A stretch of DNA of 50,560 nt from Lachnospiraceae bacterium. GTDB taxonomy: Bacteria; Bacillota; Clostridia; Lachnospirales; Lachnospiraceae. Position numbers and translations under genes: made by a program. Shown piece after piece: positions 42,087 through 50,560 of the stretch. Position 1 is the stretch's first letter, and each line of letters begins with the position of its first letter. Location of the stretch: assembly GCA_017526985.1 (NCBI GenBank), contig JAFXQR010000087.1:1-50560 (forward strand), written 5' to 3'. Under the pieces are notes generated by a model. It searched no databases and was not told the origin of the DNA. It saw only the letters and a list, made by a program, of their open reading frames with translations.

Positions 42087-44774
42087 ATGATCTACTATTT
42101 CCATGCGATGGTGGTTTTATCCGTGATATTGTCTTCCATATTCGTTCTTCGCTGGGAACGCGGTATTTCCGTTCATTTTGCCATGATCTTTATGTTCATA
42201 CCGGTCATCAATCTCGGTTACCTCAAGGTGGCAACAGCTCAGAATGTATCGGAGGCTTTGCTTGCAAATACCATTGAGTATTTCGACGGATGCTTTTTGG
42301 AACTGTTCTTCTTTTTATATGTTATGAACTTCTGCAGGGTGAAGATGCCCAAGATCTGTACGGCGATCCTTCTTGCGATCGGTTCTGTCATTTTGTTCTT
42401 TTCCATGAATACGGAAAAAACCGGCCTACTTTATAAAAGTGCCGAATTAAGGAGTATGGACGGTGTTTCTTATCTGGTGAAAGAGTACGGGCCGGTACAT
42501 ACTTTCTATTATGTCGTCATCGCCTTGTACCTGATCGTCAATCTGTCGGTGATCCTGTACAGTCTCACCAGTAAGAATATTTCCAAGACCAATTCCGTTC
42601 TGATGTTGATTGTTTATCTTGTGATCATCTTTGCGTTCCTAGCCGGCAAGGCATTTCATCCTGCCCTGGAGCTTCTTCCGGCATCCTATACCTTTGCGCA
42701 GATCATGTTCCTGGTCATTATGCGAAGGATCACTCTGTATGATGTGTCCGGTTCCTTTATTTCTAACCTGGCAGAAAACGGCAGCATCGGTTTTGTGTCG
42801 TTTGATCTGAAAATGCATTATCTTGGTTGTACGGATCCCGCACTGGAATGTCTTCCGGAATTGGATGATCTGTATGTGGATCAGACGCTTACCGGAGAAA
42901 ATCCGGTATTTGCGGATATCATGAATTGTATCCGGCATTTGGATGAGAAACGGGATGATGCATTTTTCTATGTAACACAGAACGATATCGGTTACAAGGT
43001 CACGGCAGAGTATCTGTATGTGGGGAAAAAGATCAAGGGATACCAGTTGCGGACGGAAGACAATACACCGGAAACGAGACGGCTGGAGGCCATGAAACTG
43101 AAGGAGCGGCAACAGGAAATGGAGGCGGAGATCCTGCGGCTGGAAAAATCTTCCGCAGAAGCTGCCAACGAAGCAAAGAGTTCCTTTTTGGCGCAGATGT
43201 CCCATGAGATCCGTACCCCCATCAATGCGATCCTGGGAATGAACGAGATGGTGCTGCGTGAATGCACCCAGCCGGAAATCCGGGAATATGCCGCAAATAT
43301 TCAGAGCTCCGGTAAAACACTCTTGTCGATTATCAATACGATCCTTGATTTTTCCAAGATCGAAGATGGAAAAATGGAGATCGTTCCGGTGGAATACGAA
43401 ACCGCGGTTTTGATCAATGACCTGAAGAATACGGTGACGGAAAGGGCAAAAGAAAAGGGACTGGATCTCATCCTTCAGATCGATCCGGAATTGCCGCGAA
43501 AGATGAGAGGCGATGATGTCCGCATCCGTCAGGTGATCTCCAACCTTCTGACCAACGCTGTCAAATATACGGAAAAGGGATCCGTTACGCTCTGCGTTCG
43601 AAAGCAGAAGGCAGAAGATGCTGCGGTTATGTTGTATGCGGAAGTGACGGACACCGGGATCGGGATCAAAGAAGAAGATCTTCAGGCGATGTTTGAATCC
43701 TTTAAACGGCTGGATCTGACACATAACCGTTCCATCGAGGGAACAGGCCTGGGGATGTCCATCGTGACCGGTCTGCTGGAGAAAATGAACAGCCATTTGG
43801 AGGTGCACAGTGTATACGGCCAGGGATCCACTTTTTCCTTTGAGATCCGTCAGGAGATCGTGGATGCGCAGCCGATGGGGGATTACGATGCTGTTGCACG
43901 GCCGGTATTTGTGAAATCGGAGGAATCTCTCCGCGCTCCCGAAGCAGACATTCTTGTGGTGGACGATAACGGGATGAACCTGAAGGTAGCGGACAAATTG
44001 CTGGGGATTTTTGGGATTCAGGCGGATCTTTGTTCTTCCGGCAGGGAATGCCTCAAGAAGCTGAGGGAAAAGCAATATGATATTCTCTTTTTGGATCATA
44101 TGATGCCGGAAATGAACGGTTTTGAGACCTTAGAAGCGATCCGAGAGCAGGATCTGATACCGGATACCACAACGGTGGTCGCGCTTACGGCCAATGCCAT
44201 AGCGGGGGTTCGGGAAATGTATCTGGCCAAGGGATTCGATGATTATCTTTCCAAGCCGATCGATAGCCGGGAACTGTGCCAGTTACTGGAAAAACATCTG
44301 CCGGAGGAGAAAAAGATCTCTTCGGACCAGGGAAAAGATAAGATCGAAACGGATACGGAGAAGGAAATGACCAGTACGGAAATGACCGATCCGGCGGAGG
44401 AGGATCATTTTTCGGAAGTGGAACGGGAGCGTTTGCACGAAGTGTGTCCGCAGATGGATATCGAAACAGCGATGACATATTGTATGGACTCCAAAGAGTT
44501 TTTCTATGAAACATTACGCGTGTTTGCAGAGGAAGATAAATCAGGAGCACTTCAGCAGGCTTTTATAAAAGAGGATTATGAACAGTATCGAATCACGGTG
44601 CATTCGATCAAAAGTTCCTTAAAGACCATTGGTGTTATGGAAATCTCCGAGAGAGCAAAAGAGTTGGAGTTTGCTTCCCGGGACGGTGATATCGCTTTTG
44701 TCAAAACACATCACGATGCTTTTCTGCGGGAATATAAAGAATTGCTGGAGGCTATAACCAAAGTACTGATTTGA
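42087..44774 (+). CDS. Membrane hybrid histidine kinase with receiver and Hpt domains
   Basis: This 895-aa sensor has an N-terminal membrane part of about seven helices (residues 1-210), a PAS-like segment (about 220-325), a coiled coil (about 328-365), a HisKA domain with phospho-accepting His373 in MSHEIRTP, an ATPase domain with NLLTNAVKYTEKG, DTGIGI and GTGLGMS, a receiver with Asp670 in LFLDHMMPE, an acidic linker (about 737-775) and an Hpt domain with His839 in VHSIKSS. All phosphorelay residues are intact. No separate response regulator is next to it, so its output target is elsewhere. A strong terminator follows. Confidence 0.95.
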   Translation: MIYYFHAMVVLSVILSSIFVLRWERGISVHFAMIFMFIPVINLGYLKVATAQNVSEALLANTIEYFDGCFLELFFFLYVMNFCRVKMPKICTAILLAIGSVILFFSMNTEKTGLLYKSAELRSMDGVSYLVKEYGPVHTFYYVVIALYLIVNLSVILYSLTSKNISKTNSVLMLIVYLVIIFAFLAGKAFHPALELLPASYTFAQIMFLVIMRRITLYDVSGSFISNLAENGSIGFVSFDLKMHYLGCTDPALECLPELDDLYVDQTLTGENPVFADIMNCIRHLDEKRDDAFFYVTQNDIGYKVTAEYLYVGKKIKGYQLRTEDNTPETRRLEAMKLKERQQEMEAEILRLEKSSAEAANEAKSSFLAQMSHEIRTPINAILGMNEMVLRECTQPEIREYAANIQSSGKTLLSIINTILDFSKIEDGKMEIVPVEYETAVLINDLKNTVTERAKEKGLDLILQIDPELPRKMRGDDVRIRQVISNLLTNAVKYTEKGSVTLCVRKQKAEDAAVMLYAEVTDTGIGIKEEDLQAMFESFKRLDLTHNRSIEGTGLGMSIVTGLLEKMNSHLEVHSVYGQGSTFSFEIRQEIVDAQPMGDYDAVARPVFVKSEESLRAPEADILVVDDNGMNLKVADKLLGIFGIQADLCSSGRECLKKLREKQYDILFLDHMMPEMNGFETLEAIREQDLIPDTTTVVALTANAIAGVREMYLAKGFDDYLSKPIDSRELCQLLEKHLPEEKKISSDQGKDKIETDTEKEMTSTEMTDPAEEDHFSEVERERLHEVCPQMDIETAMTYCMDSKEFFYETLRVFAEEDKSGALQQAFIKEDYEQYRITVHSIKSSLKTIGVMEISERAKELEFASRDGDIAFVKTHHDAFLREYKELLEAITKVLI

Positions 44775-44804
44775 TGGGTTATTGAGATGCGAATTATAGA
44801 ATGA

Positions 44805-44835
44805 GCCATAGAAAAGGTTCTGTGGCTTTTTTTTT
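44805..44835 (+). terminator. Intrinsic terminator after the hybrid kinase
   Basis: GCCATAGAA (44805-44813), a four-base loop and TTCTGTGGC (44818-44826) form a nine-bp stem with one G-U pair, followed by nine T. A second copy of GAGCCATAG at 44838-44846 could offer alternative pairing with the right arm. Confidence 0.9.
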
Positions 44836-44868: not shown

Positions 44869-44898
44869 ATTCACCACGGAAAAAGTGCAATTCACCAC
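44869..44898 (+). promoter_or_regulatory. Direct repeat of ATTCACCAC, possible LytTR-regulator operator
   Basis: ATTCACCAC occurs at 44869-44877 and 44890-44898, exactly 21 bp apart (nine-base units, 12-base spacer), just upstream of the -35 box of the peptidase gene. LytTR-domain regulators such as AgrA bind pairs of nine-base direct repeats with 12-13 base spacers. The regulator gene starting at 50301 is a plausible binder. Seen directly: the repeat and spacing. Inferred: the binding. Confidence 0.6.
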
Positions 44899-44902
44899 AT
44901 TT

Positions 44903-44932
44903 TTGTTTTTTCTCCGGATCCGTGTATATAAT
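44903..44932 (+). promoter_or_regulatory. Predicted promoter of the peptidase-transporter operon
   Basis: TTGTTT (44903-44908) and TATAAT (44927-44932) are 18 bases apart. The -35 box is four bases downstream of the ATTCACCAC pair. The leader to 44973 is about 34 bases. Confidence 0.65.
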
Positions 44933-44972
44933 GGACAATGTTGAAAAAATAAGAGATAAGAGGATACAAATT

Positions 44973-46997
44973 ATGAAAAAACGGGTGGCGGCAATGCTGC
45001 TGATGACATCCATACTGCTATCGGGCTGTGGGAGCGCGGTTCCGGAGGAGTTTATGGAGGAAGAGCAGGAAAAGGACGAAGAAGTTATTTTGGATCCGGC
45101 GTCGATCCGGCCGGAGGATGACTTCAACGGCTATGTCAATGCAGAGTATCTGATGGGACTGGATCTTGACGAACATAAAGGCAGCTATGGTTCTTTTCAG
45201 GCAGTGCAGGATCTGGTGGATGATCAGGTGGACGGGATCATTGAAGAGATCGTAAACGGTGACCGGAATATGTATGCGCCGGGCAGTAACGAGCAGCTGA
45301 TCTACGATGCCTATTACCAGGTATTGGAGGCTTCCTGCGGCGGAGAATTTATGAACGATGAGGACATTACGGATATGCTCTCGACGATCGCAAAGATCCA
45401 AAGCATACAGAACATTGAAGAGTTTCTGGAACTGAGCGGTGAACTGTATGAAGAGTGGAATGTAAATCCGATCTTCGGCCTTTCCGTAGGTTCGGATATG
45501 CACAATTCTTCGGTGGGAAGTATCTGGCTGGAGCCGTTTTCGGATCCGAGCGGATCTAACCCGAGGAACGTCAGTGTAGGCGGAAACATGGGACAGGTGG
45601 TAGCCATGTATTATCGTAAGGCGCTGATCGACGGCGGAATGGACGGCGATGAAGCAAAAGAAAGAAGCGTGAATACAGCCCGGATGATCATTGACATTGC
45701 GCAGGCGACAGATCTGGATCTGCTGGAACGGATGGAAAAAGACTGGGATGTTGCGATGCAGACGGCACAGTACAAAACGGCTGAGGAGATCGATGCCATC
45801 TGTCCGAATGTCGGGATGGCGGGGCTGCTGCAAACCTTGGGACTTCCGGCGGATGCGGCAGACGGTGTATATCTCTGGGATGCGGGACAGCTTGCAAAGA
45901 TCGATTCCCTGCTTACGGAGGAACACCTGAAAGAGTGGCAGGACATTGCCCTTATGTGCTACCGGAGCAGTATCAGCAGCCTGCTGACGGAAGAATACGG
46001 CGGACAGCCGGTTCTGTATTCCAATAACAAGTATGCGCTGGATGCGGTGAAACTCATCCTTGGAAAAGAACTCGGAGAGGAATATGCCGAAAGATATTAC
46101 GACGAGCAGACGGTGGAAGCGGTATGTGAGATCGCGGAAGAGATCACGGAAGAATACAAAGTGATGATCGAAGACTGCAACTGGCTCAGCGCAGAAGGAA
46201 AAAGCGCGATCCGGGCCAAACTGGATAATATGATGTACTTCATCGGAGCGGATGATCCGCATACGGTGGATCCGAAAGATGCAGAACTGATCGGACATTC
46301 GGCTTACGATACACAACACCGGATCAATAAGAGGGATTACCGGGAGCGGATGGACATCCTGAAGAACGGGATCGAAAGAAACGGTTTTCAGAGCATGGCA
46401 CCGATGGCAGTAAACGCCTGCTATTCACCGGATATGAATTCGATCAATATCACCCTGGCGATCATGAATGCTCCTTTTTACAGCCCGGAGCAGACGGATG
46501 CGGAAAACCTCGGCGGGATCGGGGCTGTGATCGGACACGAGATCTCTCATGCGTTTGATGATCAGGGGATGAAGTATGACAGCAACGGAAATTATGAACC
46601 GGACTGGATGCCGGAAAAGGATCGCGAAGCTTTTGATGAAATGGCGTCACATATCGAGGAGTACTATTCACGGCAGAAGATCCTGGAGATCCATCCGGTA
46701 GACGGTGAGCTGACGCTGGGGGAAAATCTGGCAGATATCAGCGGGGTGGACTGTATCCTGCGTCTGACAAAGACAAACGAAGAACGAAAGGAACTGCTGG
46801 AAAACTATGCTAGGGTATGGGCATGTGTTTCGCAGAAGGACGGCGCGCTCGCGCAGCTGTATTCGGATGTACACAGTCCTGCGATCACACGAGTGAATGC
46901 AGTGGTGGCACTCTTTGATCCCTTCTATGAGATCTATGATGTGAAAGAAGGGGATGCAATGTATGTGGCCCCGGAAGAAAGAGTAACAAGGTGGTAG
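44973..46997 (+). CDS. Lipoprotein M13-family zinc metallopeptidase (PepO/neprilysin-like)
   Basis: This 674-aa endopeptidase cuts short peptides. It has a lipoprotein signal (residues 1-22, lipobox LSGC with Cys20), so it is anchored outside the membrane. The zinc site is HEISH (His522, Glu523, His526) with the third ligand Glu584 in ENLADISG; the C-terminus ends in the family's terminal Trp. AGAGGA precedes the ATG; the open frame reaches back to 44850 but the signal peptide fixes the start. It leads an operon with an ABC transporter and a response regulator. Related PepO enzymes in streptococci degrade peptide signals and host peptides. Confidence 0.94.
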   Translation: MKKRVAAMLLMTSILLSGCGSAVPEEFMEEEQEKDEEVILDPASIRPEDDFNGYVNAEYLMGLDLDEHKGSYGSFQAVQDLVDDQVDGIIEEIVNGDRNMYAPGSNEQLIYDAYYQVLEASCGGEFMNDEDITDMLSTIAKIQSIQNIEEFLELSGELYEEWNVNPIFGLSVGSDMHNSSVGSIWLEPFSDPSGSNPRNVSVGGNMGQVVAMYYRKALIDGGMDGDEAKERSVNTARMIIDIAQATDLDLLERMEKDWDVAMQTAQYKTAEEIDAICPNVGMAGLLQTLGLPADAADGVYLWDAGQLAKIDSLLTEEHLKEWQDIALMCYRSSISSLLTEEYGGQPVLYSNNKYALDAVKLILGKELGEEYAERYYDEQTVEAVCEIAEEITEEYKVMIEDCNWLSAEGKSAIRAKLDNMMYFIGADDPHTVDPKDAELIGHSAYDTQHRINKRDYRERMDILKNGIERNGFQSMAPMAVNACYSPDMNSINITLAIMNAPFYSPEQTDAENLGGIGAVIGHEISHAFDDQGMKYDSNGNYEPDWMPEKDREAFDEMASHIEEYYSRQKILEIHPVDGELTLGENLADISGVDCILRLTKTNEERKELLENYARVWACVSQKDGALAQLYSDVHSPAITRVNAVVALFDPFYEIYDVKEGDAMYVAPEERVTRW

Positions 46998-47042
46998 GTC
47001 GGTGCGATTATGACGAAGTCATAATTTTGCATCGCACCGACC
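46997..47042. repeat. Stem-loop after the peptidase gene
   Basis: GGTCGGTGCGAT (46997-47008) pairs perfectly with ATCGCACCGACC (47031-47042), and inside it ATTATGAC (47007-47014) pairs with GTCATAAT (47018-47025), giving a stem of about 18 pairs with one bulge. There is no T-run, so it is not a normal terminator. It begins at the last base of the peptidase stop codon and may set the ratio of peptidase to transporter. Confidence 0.8.
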
Positions 47043-47047
47043 GAAAT

Positions 47048-47072
47048 GGCAGGACGAAGAATGAGTCCTGCC
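47048..47072. repeat. Second stem-loop before the permease gene
   Basis: GGCAGGAC (47048-47055) and GTCCTGCC (47065-47072) form a perfect eight-bp stem with a nine-base loop, eight bases before the GGAGG ribosome site of the permease gene. No T-run follows. Confidence 0.75.
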
Positions 47073-47091
47073 GATACTATGGAGGCTTAAT

Positions 47092-49572
47092 ATGGGTATA
47101 ATGATCAAACATTCCTTAAAGAATATTTTTGCAAAACCGTTCCGTTTGTTATTGCTGGTATTTTGCATTACGTTTGCATCCTTTACGGCATTGCTGGCGG
47201 TCGATATGCGGAACAATATCTCTTCCCTGATGCGGGGCTATATGATCGATATGATCGGACAGATGGATATTCTGGCGTATGGCACTTCTTCGGAAAGTGT
47301 GGAAGGACTGGATGAGATCGCAGCATTGAAAAAAGTGGGACTTGGTTCGGTCTATCAATATGAATATGAGACTGACCCTTCCGGGTATGAGTATTCTTAT
47401 GAAACAATGGTTGAGGTGGTATCTATTTCGGATTATGCGGCGGCATATGATATGTCCTACTTTCCGAAAGTGATCGAATTGGACGATCAGTCGGCGGTGA
47501 TCACAAAGGATTATGCAGATACCTTTGGGACTGCGATCGGTGACACGATCACGCTGCAGACCAGGGACGAAGTGGACATCGAACTGAACGTGAAGGATGT
47601 TGTGGATATTAAAAACACCTTTGTTAAGGGAGAAGCGGTGTTTGTAACAAATACCATTGTGAAAAGGATCGCCTGCACAAGAGAAACGGATTATGATGCC
47701 TGGATCATCGATGTGGAAGATGACGCAAAGGTAACTGAAGTAGCGGATGCTTTGCGTCAGGCAGATCCGTCCGCGGAACTGGAAGTGCTCCAGGAGATCA
47801 TGGATGATCCGGATATCGACCAGATCTATAACCTGTTTTATCTGTTATTCCTGATCTCGTTTCTGCTGGTGATCTTTGTAACGGTATCTATGGCGGAAAA
47901 GATCGTCAATGAACGGATGTCGGTGATCGGTACGCTCCGCAGTCTTGGCGTGGCACCGGGAGCAACGACGTGGATGCTGCTGATCGAAAACATTATGTAC
48001 GCCATGATCGGTACGGGGATCGGCATCTTCCTGTATACCAGAGTGAAACCAGTCCTGCTGAATGCCATGATCAATCTTTCAGAGACGGGCAGGGATCCGA
48101 AGCAGTATATCGGCGCAACACCGGTGTGGGTATATCTTCTGGTCCTGCTGGGGGCAATCCTGGTGGAATGCGCTTATCCGCTGTATGAACTGACCAGAGC
48201 GGTAAAGACACCGATCCGCGATATTATTTTCGACAATAAGGATACGGCATTTCAATATCGCTGGGGCAGACTGTATGCAGGTATCGTGCTGGGCGTGGCG
48301 GCGCTTGTTACCGGACTGCTGGTAAAGAATTTTGTGACACTGGCGATATCCCTGGCCTGCGGCATCATTGCACTGGCAGTGCTGATCCCGTTCCTGATCC
48401 GCATCATTTCGAAAGGGATCACGGCAGTCTGCAAAAAACTTTCGCTTCCGGTGGCCCAGCTGGCGGCAGAGAATATTTCCAGAAACCGTATCGTTATGGG
48501 AACAGCAGTGCTTTGTGTGACCTCACTGACACTTTCGCTTCTGATCGGCTGCATGGGAGAAACAATGGGCAATGATCTGGAAAAGAGCGAGTATGATTGC
48601 GATGTGATCGTCGATATCTCTCTTAATGATGATTATCACAATTACCGGTATATCGGTGCGGTCGAAGGTGTGGAGGATACGGATTTTATCTACCGTACGC
48701 TGTCGACGATGAAGTTGGGAGAGGATAAACAAAGGAGCATTTACGTACTGGCGGATACACAGCATACGATGCTGGAAGGGCTTCCGGCTGAAGGATTTGA
48801 TCTGAAAGAAAACGAGATCGTTATTTCTAACGCGGCAGCGCAGCGGCTGGGGATCAACATCGGAGATGAGATCACGATAACGATCGATCCGGATACCGAT
48901 TTTCCCATCGAAAAACAGATGATCGTAAAAGAAACACTGAATATGGAAAAAATAGAGAGTCTGGGTACCTGGACGGTGATCATGAATACGGATGTGTATA
49001 CCCATCTGTTCGGCGGAAAGATCCTCGGTATGGTATTGGTAAAATGCGCGGATCCGGATGCGGTAAAAGAGAGGATTGTAAAGTGCAGTGAATCCACAGC
49101 GTTAAGCGTGGAAACACTGGCAGAGAAGACAGCGATGGAAAAGGATTCAACGAGCGGATTGCTGCTGGTGATACGCCTGATCGTTGCGGGAAGTGCGGGA
49201 CTGACACTGATCGGTATCGCAGGAAACCAGTCGCTGGGCTTCCTGACGAGAAAGCGCGAAAATGCACTGCTGTATTCGGTAGCGCTTCCCAGAGGCGGAC
49301 TGAAGAAAATGCTGTTCCTGGAAAGTGTATTCTCTATGGGGATCTCTGCGGTCATAGCAGCGATCACGGCACCGTTCCTTTACGGTGTGCTCGGCCATCT
49401 GCTGGATGTGATCGGTGACGGCGACATCAATATCCTTGAGCAGGGAATGGCGGCTACAACAAAAGGCCTGCTGTATCTGGGCGTGATACTGGTGGTATAT
49501 CTGATGACCACGCTGATCCCGTTCAAATACCTGCGGAAGATGAACATTGCAGAAGAATTAAAATACGAATAA
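47092..49572 (+). CDS. FtsX-like (MacB-superfamily) ABC permease
   Basis: This 826-aa permease has two FtsX-like halves: a first helix (residues about 15-38), an extracellular domain (about 40-255), three helices (about 256-372), then a junction helix pair (about 397-442), another helix (about 465-485), a second extracellular domain (about 495-690) and three final helices. The layout fits type VII ABC systems that do mechanical work on, or remove, lipids and peptides at the outside face. GGAGG sits six bases before the start. Its ATPase follows 29 bases downstream. Confidence 0.9.
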   Translation: MGIMIKHSLKNIFAKPFRLLLLVFCITFASFTALLAVDMRNNISSLMRGYMIDMIGQMDILAYGTSSESVEGLDEIAALKKVGLGSVYQYEYETDPSGYEYSYETMVEVVSISDYAAAYDMSYFPKVIELDDQSAVITKDYADTFGTAIGDTITLQTRDEVDIELNVKDVVDIKNTFVKGEAVFVTNTIVKRIACTRETDYDAWIIDVEDDAKVTEVADALRQADPSAELEVLQEIMDDPDIDQIYNLFYLLFLISFLLVIFVTVSMAEKIVNERMSVIGTLRSLGVAPGATTWMLLIENIMYAMIGTGIGIFLYTRVKPVLLNAMINLSETGRDPKQYIGATPVWVYLLVLLGAILVECAYPLYELTRAVKTPIRDIIFDNKDTAFQYRWGRLYAGIVLGVAALVTGLLVKNFVTLAISLACGIIALAVLIPFLIRIISKGITAVCKKLSLPVAQLAAENISRNRIVMGTAVLCVTSLTLSLLIGCMGETMGNDLEKSEYDCDVIVDISLNDDYHNYRYIGAVEGVEDTDFIYRTLSTMKLGEDKQRSIYVLADTQHTMLEGLPAEGFDLKENEIVISNAAAQRLGINIGDEITITIDPDTDFPIEKQMIVKETLNMEKIESLGTWTVIMNTDVYTHLFGGKILGMVLVKCADPDAVKERIVKCSESTALSVETLAEKTAMEKDSTSGLLLVIRLIVAGSAGLTLIGIAGNQSLGFLTRKRENALLYSVALPRGGLKKMLFLESVFSMGISAVIAAITAPFLYGVLGHLLDVIGDGDINILEQGMAATTKGLLYLGVILVVYLMTTLIPFKYLRKMNIAEELKYE

Positions 49573-49601
49573 AAATTCACCAATAAAAGGGAGATAAAAT
49601 C

Positions 49602-50273
49602 ATGGACACAATCATTACTGTTGATAACGTATATAAGTCATTCGGAAAAGGTGATCTGGAAGTAAAGGTGTTGCAGGGAGCGAACCTGACGGTGCAGAGG
49701 GGTGAATTTGTTTCCCTGATGGGACCGTCCGGTTCCGGAAAATCAACATTGTTATATCTGATCGGCGGACTGGACCGTAACTTTACCGGAGATATCATCG
49801 TATGCGGAGAAAACATCGGAAAACTGAAAGAGAAAAAACTTTCCGAGCTGCGTCTTAGCAAGATCGGTTTTATCTTCCAGTTCTACAATCTGGTGCAGAA
49901 TCTGTCGGTGGAAGATAATATCACACTGCCGTTGAAAGTGGCGAAGCGTTTTGACAGTGCTGCGGAAAAGCGTGTAACGGAGATCCTGGATATCACCGGG
50001 ATCGCGGATAAACGCAAGGTAATGCCGGCGAAGCTTTCCGGCGGACAGCAGCAGCGTGTTGCCATCGCCCGTGCGCTGATGGGTGAGCCGGAGATCATCC
50101 TGGCGGATGAGCCCACCGGAAATCTGGATAAGGAATCCGGCGAGACGATCATGGAACTGTTCAAAAAGATCAACGAGGAAAAGGGAATGACGATCATGCA
50201 GGTGACACATTCCGAAAAGAACAGCCATTACGGTACCCGCCTGGTAAATCTCGACAACGGGAAGCTTATCTGA
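49602..50273 (+). CDS. ABC transporter ATPase (MacB/LolD type)
   Basis: This 223-aa ATPase has Walker [10 protein letters not shown] (Lys47), Q-loop FQFYNLV, signature [10 protein letters not shown], Walker [13 protein letters not shown] and the switch His in VTHSE. It belongs to the MacB/LolD/FtsE group that pairs with FtsX-like permeases, here the gene immediately upstream. AAAGGGAGA precedes the start. All catalytic residues are present. Confidence 0.95.
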
Positions 50274-50300
50274 TATGATAAGAGGCGTTGGGAGATAAAT

Positions 50301-50560
50301 ATGAGAATCGCCATTTGTGATGATGAAAAAATATTTTTAGATAGTCTGGAAGAGAAAATTTACGGGATCCTTTCGAAACTGGATTGCGAGGTGATCCCGT
50401 TTTTCTCGGCGGAAGCGCTGCTGTCTTCTTCGATGGATTACGATCTGATCTTTCTGGACATCGAGATGGGTGAACTGGACGGAATGGGCGCGGCAAAAAA
50501 GATCCGCGAAACGGATTTTGAAACGCCCATCGTATTCCTGACCAGTCATATAGAGATGGC
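50301..50560 (+). CDS. Response regulator, N-terminal part (AgrA/LytTR-like), cut by window edge
   Basis: The first 86 residues form a receiver domain: IAICDDE with acidic Asp7 and Asp8, phospho-acceptor Asp53 in FLDIEMGELDG, and the VFLTSH switch Thr. The start IAICDDE and DIEMGELDG are typical of AgrA-type regulators whose output is a LytTR DNA-binding domain, but that part lies beyond the window. GGGAGA precedes the start. It lies 27 bases after the ATPase, so it belongs to the same operon. Confidence 0.85.
   Translation, partial: MRIAICDDEKIFLDSLEEKIYGILSKLDCEVIPFFSAEALLSSSMDYDLIFLDIEMGELDGMGAAKKIRETDFETPIVFLTSHIEM

Follow-up and report, generated by a model that had tools for sequence, protein, structure and literature searches.

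What does a bacterium gain by encoding a surface peptidase, a membrane transporter and a response regulator side by side? The question is raised by a stretch of DNA from Lachnospiraceae bacterium (assembly GCA_017526985.1, contig JAFXQR010000087.1, positions 1 to 50,560; hereafter the window), which forms contig C165 in a genome of 220 contigs and 4.09 Mb. Four genes in a row on the + strand near its end encode an M13 lipoprotein, an FtsX-type permease, an ATP-binding cassette (ABC) ATPase and a response regulator. A first-pass annotation, made from the sequence alone, had suggested a loop in which a peptide is sensed, exported or extracted, and degraded outside the cell. From the comparisons described below, this gene set, conserved in some Lachnospiraceae (several of them from the rumen), probably serves to recognize harmful peptides, clear them and break them down. 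That the operon is specifically a peptide detoxification module controlled by a two-component system is a reading to which we assign roughly even chances.

A five-gene operon that crosses a contig end

The first gene (44973..46997, +) encodes a zinc metallopeptidase of 674 amino acids from the M13 (neprilysin/PepO) family, with Pfam matches to PF01431 (E 1e-44) and PF05649 (E 6e-35) and the lipobox LSGC. The sequence features of M13 membership are present, namely HExxH, ExxxD, NAxY and the C-terminal His and Arg residues, and in 18 aligned M13 proteins the residues H522, E523 and H526 (HExxH), E584, D588, N481, H634 and R640 are invariant; we assume for these the catalytic roles customary in the family. 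The solved structures closest by sequence are those of bacterial M13/PepO/Zmp1 enzymes. Judged from these residues the active site is intact, and peptidase activity is predicted; the lipobox points to anchoring at the surface.

The second gene (47092..49572, +) encodes a permease of the FtsX/MacB superfamily with 826 amino acids (PF02687, PF12704). Ten transmembrane (TM) helices are predicted. Hydropathy, together with a structure model of low to medium confidence, supports two large external regions, at about residues 56-238 (TM1-2) and 498-672 (TM7-8). The best whole-length structural matches of the permease are to Escherichia coli YbbP and then BceB, not FtsX, although the absence of a family from these matches is no evidence against that family. 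The third gene (49602..50273, +) encodes an ABC ATPase of 223 amino acids (PF00005), which belongs to the LolD/MacB/YbbA-like group; its scores stay under the curated cut-offs of all NCBIfam models for this group. The fourth gene (50301..50560, +) encodes the receiver part of a response regulator (receiver domain at 50301-50558 by Pfam) and is interrupted by the contig end.

An operon end at the edge of the window was ruled out, because the continuation was found on contig C137 of the same genome (locus L009, G000:C137), one end of which is identical to the final 141 bases of the window. This join rests on exact sequence overlap rather than on reads, and the identical gene order is contiguous in relatives. 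The remainder of the regulator on L009 comprises a LytTR domain (PF04397, E 1.6e-12) and a stop codon. It is followed after 148 nucleotides (nt) by a GHKL histidine kinase of 393 amino acids (L009 5154-3973, -; PF14501, E 5.7e-20). The kinase has some five hydrophobic segments and lacks a large ectodomain. A histidine kinase beyond position 50560 had been anticipated by the first-pass annotation, and the gene after the regulator is accordingly not unrelated to it. Beyond the kinase lie a GDSL hydrolase gene and then an OmpR/ABC-2 bundle.

A conserved operator with fixed promoter spacing

The region upstream of the M13 gene bears out the earlier proposal of a candidate operator in front of the operon. 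Two direct repeats with a 21-base-pair (bp) period, TTCACCAC-N13-TTCACCAC (44870..44898, +), are followed exactly 28 nt later by the -10 box TATAAT (44927..44932, +) with no -35 box. When up to three mismatches were allowed, this was the sole match in the window, and it has no mismatches itself; a single loose match would by itself be at chance level, since 0.62 were expected from shuffled sequences. The element stands above chance because it is conserved with a fixed distance to TATAAT, which is 28 nt in 12/12 orthologous promoters. These regions were searched for a repeat pair with at most two mismatches and a -10 box allowed 22-39 nt downstream. None of the 12 promoters has a -35 box (best match 1-3 of 6 positions), and the second repeat is almost always followed by ATTT. 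As far as sequence can tell, LytTR promoters that are activated are arranged in this way, and the operator is the probable binding site of the LytTR regulator encoded by the operon.

Beyond these promoters, two further M13 promoters deviate slightly in spacing. In G307 the distance is 29 nt and the contig ends soon after an apparent M13 start, whereas in G116, from another genus (L168), a 29-nt spacing to TATAGT precedes an M13 gene about 33% identical, and LytTR and GHKL domains were confirmed there. No operator with three or fewer mismatches lies near the M13 genes of L118-L126, and nothing close to the pattern was found in L228-L230.

Wider scans define how specific the motif is. The 4.09-Mb genome holds one site without mismatches, and 93 sites at up to three mismatches compared with 71 for the reversed control. 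Across the genus, an operator-only scan allowing one mismatch gave 18 sites (reversed control, 1), comprising ten at M13 orthologues, one at the apparent M13 start of G307, one at a MacA-like operon and six others. The same kind of scan over 299 family genomes yielded 6 sites against 2 for the reversed control: two M13 promoters (the own genome and G116), one site in G149 and three within other long open reading frames (ORFs). A composite pattern of operator plus -10 box matched exactly at 13 sites in the 35 genus genomes, which are the 12 M13 promoters and G311:C41. The 12 M13 matches follow by construction, because the pattern was written from those promoters, and the only independent sites are therefore G311:C41 (no mismatches) and G316:C97 (one mismatch); seven others appeared at two to three mismatches (one in G323), compared with four for the reversed control. 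Chance is ruled out as the origin of the operator at M13 promoters, and the motif by itself is not diagnostic.

Three of the sites elsewhere merit description. At L166 1536-1760 (G311:C41) and L167 1510-1738 (G316:C97), the operator with 28-nt spacing precedes genes for a MacA-like adaptor, an ATPase and a MacB-like permease, and an apparent second promoter (TTGACA plus a -10 box) lies further down. At L243 (G149:C2:940219-940248), an operator-like repeat pair separates a LytTR-like regulator gene, assigned by eye, from a divergent gene in a genome that has no M13 match.

Conservation of the gene set within the genus

The gene order is conserved in related genomes, as the annotation had supposed it would be if the genes form a unit. 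M13 matches occur in 19 of the 35 genus genomes, orthologues (54-100% identity) in 12. The permease gene follows directly at all 12 orthologous loci (one permease is cut by a contig end), and at the ten loci where the contig reaches far enough the ATPase is present in 10/10, the regulator in 10/10 and the kinase in 9/10. Genes past the kinase vary between genomes and the GDSL hydrolase was not seen there in relatives, which places the GDSL gene outside the unit. Eight loci came from named genomes: six Lachnospiraceae assemblies, of which five name the rumen or omasum in their titles, and two Oscillospiraceae assemblies with more distant M13 proteins (37-39%).

This pattern bears on the view that the ABC machine moves no substrate at all and instead toggles its lipoprotein enzyme, as FtsEX does with cell-wall hydrolases, so that M13 would process surface proteins or wall peptides. 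We regard such mechanotransmission as unlikely. The operon is dispensable, with orthologues in just 12/35 genus genomes; YbbP and BceB rather than FtsX head the whole-length matches of the permease; and dedicated two-component systems suit a stress response better.

The peptidase, permease and ATPase form the core

The core of the system is the M13-permease-ATPase triplet, around which regulators are swapped or absent. This was established by inspecting 108 loci with M13 and permease profiles, 107 of which contain M13. A neighbouring permease was looked for at 30/44 matches from family genomes, 30/42 from the genus, 30/95 and 14/14 from further searches, and 8/8 named-genome loci. Among the loci inspected, a permease gene comes directly after every M13 scoring above 530 bits (except L088, at a contig end) and after that of L053, and after no other M13. 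Since 18 linked M13 proteins had built the profile, it is the new cases (L188, L189, L190, L053 and further orthologues) that carry weight. A lipobox is present in 24/26 M13 proteins, and the other two (L229, L230) look secreted.

Phylogeny agrees with this picture. In an M13 tree of 96 rows, the 28 permease-linked proteins form one group, requiring 1 change compared with 24.6 for shuffled labels; support by a quick method is 82, or 99 for the 27 rows without the long-branched L053. Eleven duplicates or contig-end copies (L088, L099-L103, L106, L187, L223, L226 and L227) were left out, as was L087, which has no M13. In the reverse direction, a search with the permease found it in 11/299 family genomes, with M13 adjacent in 8/11. 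M13 and permease trees for 25 loci share 15/22 splits (0.17 for shuffled labels), an agreement that partly reflects species descent. Profile survey, M13 tree, reverse search and tree agreement together rule out a chance neighbourhood of M13 and permease. In plasmids, three distant matches to M13 (25-26% identity) and none to the permease turned up, and viral contigs gave no match to the L122 M13.

These counts also bear on a nutritional explanation, in which M13 would break down peptides from the environment and the transporter would deal with the resulting products. Most named relatives come from the rumen or omasum and M13 enzymes are general endopeptidases, both of which would suit nutrient use. 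We nevertheless consider it very improbable: the M13-permease pair is sparse (8/299 family genomes), the five conserved genes include no importer-type gene, and FtsX/MacB-type machines are not known to be importers.

Two observations concern related genes. In G125 (L238 202-4650), the position that M13 occupies elsewhere, directly 5ʹ of the genes for a related FtsX permease and an ATPase, is taken by a gene for a GH3 lipoprotein glycosidase. The genome under study encodes a second M13 protein (L126, G000:C203; 27-29% identical) without an adjacent permease, and regulator-like (OmpR-type) and kinase-like ORFs, recognized by BLAST similarity only, lie about 1 kb downstream of it.

Exchange of regulators and probable transfer between genera

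LytTR/GHKL genes occur downstream of the triplet in the same genus and in G116, and upstream of it in L118 and L119 (Pfam on L119). At L122-L125, the downstream genes are instead of the OmpR/HisKA type (Pfam on L122). In all six pairs among four genomes of four genera, this five-gene version shows 98.0-99.5% identity across about 7 kb, aligned in one or two blocks. Where both flanks are available, the similarity begins some 150-240 nt 5ʹ of the M13 gene and stops about 30 nt past the kinase gene; the only similarity found outside the unit is a block of 197 nt shared by L122 and L123, one of 37 nt shared by L122 and L124, and a stretch of 575 nt over which L123 and L124 match at 72%. Near-identity across four genera that ends at the edges of the unit points to a recent transfer of the OmpR/HisKA version as a unit. 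A recombinase gene (PF07508) lies upstream of this version in L123.

The exchange of regulators is relevant to whether the operon could serve peptide signalling, with the permease exporting or retrieving a self-made peptide, M13 trimming or clearing it outside and the GHKL kinase sensing it in an Agr-like manner. As the annotation noted, streptococcal PepO destroys peptide signals. A GHKL kinase with a LytTR regulator is the pair of Agr-type systems, and the conserved promoter before M13 would drive the regulator and kinase genes too, which would create feedback. By eye, however, no conserved gene for a small signal peptide was seen in the gaps of ten loci, in the 300 nt before M13 or, in eight loci, in the 400 nt after the kinase (no AgrB/AgrD profile search was made), and this makes the loop less likely. 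Moreover, other versions of the triplet have OmpR/HisKA genes or none, and one version is near-identical in four genera. We judge a signalling loop to be improbable. The interpretation originally suggested is thus supported in part: same-strand genes stand behind one conserved operator and promoter, with a dedicated two-component system, a conserved gene order, an intact M13 active site and surface anchoring. A gene for a signal peptide is not supported, and cell-to-cell signalling therefore has no direct evidence.

Other features of the operon and its surroundings

Upstream of the operon, a gene for a hybrid 7TM histidine kinase with a receiver domain (42087-44774) is followed by a terminator-like hairpin with a T-run (44803..44828, +; 11-pair stem, tail TTTTTTTGTG), which would set the operon apart from this kinase gene. 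Eight terminator-like sites were found in the region against 4.2 in shuffles. Because the hybrid kinase is at that place in some near relatives only (L107 and L108, with its end in L112), we place it outside the unit.

The annotation had considered separate transcription of the M13 gene. The conserved promoter stands before M13, and in this genome and G311 a strong double hairpin lies between M13 and the permease. The two tandem RNA hairpins (46997..47072, +; minimum free energy -42.9 kcal/mol, z -7.8) lie in a gap that is 94 nt long in these two genomes only; at eight other loci its length was measured as 3-39 nt. A second copy is absent from the genome. They may uncouple M13 from permease mRNA levels. 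Other operon gaps carry short insertions (L009 5155-5302, L107 8601-8700, L108 9243-9331), which are apparently copies of a short genomic repeat, and the translations of two of the three resemble PLEGKVAEGRMR. At the end of the ATPase gene, 5ʹ of the regulator, there is a promoter-like site (window 50251-50279; L108 9220-9248) composed of TCGACA, 17 nt and TATGAT (10/12). It lies within coding sequence and is no more frequent than in shuffles, and it may leave room for a second start for the regulator.

A proposed model for peptide detoxification

In the model that we propose, the division of labour known from nsr operons would be applied to a membrane-active peptide. Such a peptide would arrive from outside at the cell membrane, where the GHKL kinase would detect it, either directly or via the permease. 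The phosphorylated LytTR regulator would then bind the two TTCACCAC repeats and recruit RNA polymerase to the -35-less promoter. The YbbP/BceB-like 10-helix permease and its ATPase would use ATP to extract the peptide from the membrane, and the adjacent anchored M13 lipoprotein would cleave it, preventing reinsertion. What we infer in this model is the nature of the ligand, that the regulator binds DNA and activates the promoter, that peptidase and permease are physically coupled, and that resistance results.

Protection from a foreign peptide of this kind would account better than cell-to-cell signalling for the horizontal spread, for the nsr-like plan and for the fact that regulators are exchanged. 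A defensive role would likewise suit the near-identity across genera, the sparse occurrence and the MacAB co-target. A bolder and distinctly more tentative proposal is that the triplet represents a new class of hydrolase-coupled ABC machine, in which a YbbP-like permease passes the membrane-lifted peptide straight to a docked M13 lipoprotein. Elsewhere, a machine of this kind would have other surface enzymes as partners, such as GH3 in G125, and both enzyme and regulator would be exchangeable in a cassette that spreads between genera.

Several points weigh against detoxification. The system has no known substrate, M13 enzymes mostly cut short linear peptides, lanthionine-ringed ones may be poor substrates, and GHKL/LytTR pairs often serve in bacteriocin and quorum-sensing control. 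The mean predicted local distance difference test (pLDDT) score of the permease model is only 64. Three of the 11 permease relatives have no M13 (G125, G134, G099), and G311 (L107) has no kinase gene beside the regulator. Nine triplets, searched with six queries, show no two-component genes in the available stretch (L120, L121, L169, L170, L228-L230, L104, L105), and inducibility is therefore dispensable for the core. MacA orthologues of this genome (L174, 86%) and of G327 (89%) lack the operator, which limits a second target of this kind to part of the genus at most. Finally, among the nsr-like operons of Corynebacterium that have been tested, that of Corynebacterium lactis conferred no nisin resistance (PMC8003753).

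If detoxification is correct, the peptidase-transporter-kinase plan already known from peptide resistance would come to include metallopeptidases, and such modules would circulate among Lachnospiraceae, which are major gut and rumen bacteria. The operon also allows one to ask whether MacB-superfamily transporters act by passing their substrates on to a partner enzyme, and the exact position of its operator makes the regulator easy to test.

Comparison with known systems

The first-pass annotation knew of no system with this exact gene set, and no description of an M13-ABC-two-component operon was found in titles and abstract starts within the open-licence PubMed Central literature. Its parts nevertheless recall several known systems. 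LytTR sites, according to one account, are direct repeats of 8-9 bp with a spacer of 10-13 bp, mostly located upstream of -35 and activating (PMC11347149). The operon likewise combines receiver and LytTR domains with paired direct repeats ahead of the promoter, in the spacer range that this account gives; it differs in the sequence of the repeats, TTCACCAC.

BceAB-RS systems resemble the operon in having a 10-TM FtsX permease with a TM7-TM8 ectodomain, an ATPase and a two-component system (PMC5786555). BceB is defined by a single ectodomain, whereas the permease here has a second one of about 180 residues between TM1 and TM2 (in the model with pLDDT 64); a peptidase is added, and the regulator and kinase are of the LytTR and GHKL types. 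The two-ectodomain fold of YbbAP-like permeases is matched over its whole length. YbbAP of E. coli partners with the esterase TesA, whereas the hydrolase here is a peptidase lipoprotein, sequence identity is 11-13%, and the operon has its own two-component system.

The closest overall plan is that of the nsr operons, which bring together an extracellular peptidase anchored in the membrane, an FtsX-type ABC transporter built from a single ATPase and a single large permease, and a two-component system (PMC5786555, PMC8003753). The nsr operon of Streptococcus agalactiae comprises SaNSR, which cuts nisin, NsrFP, which expels it, and NsrRK (PMC5786555, PMC8003753, PMC5583591). When an nsr-like operon of Corynebacterium casei was placed in C. 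glutamicum, the transporter raised the minimal inhibitory concentration of nisin two-fold, and addition of the peptidase gave four-fold overall (PMC8003753). An extracellular peptidase, an ATPase, a large permease, a response regulator and a kinase stand side by side here as well. The nsr peptidase, however, is an S41 serine enzyme anchored by a TM segment (SaNSR), whereas the protein here is an M13 zinc enzyme (PF01431 and PF05649 were the only Pfam matches) and a lipoprotein; the permease has one ectodomain (TM7-8) in Bce types and none in Corynebacterium, compared with two here. The LytTR/GHKL regulators also set the operon apart from nsr; L122-L125 have OmpR/HisKA in their place. Because peptidase family and permease subtype differ, the operon is by membership not an nsr operon, and in its predicted working principle it is close to one.

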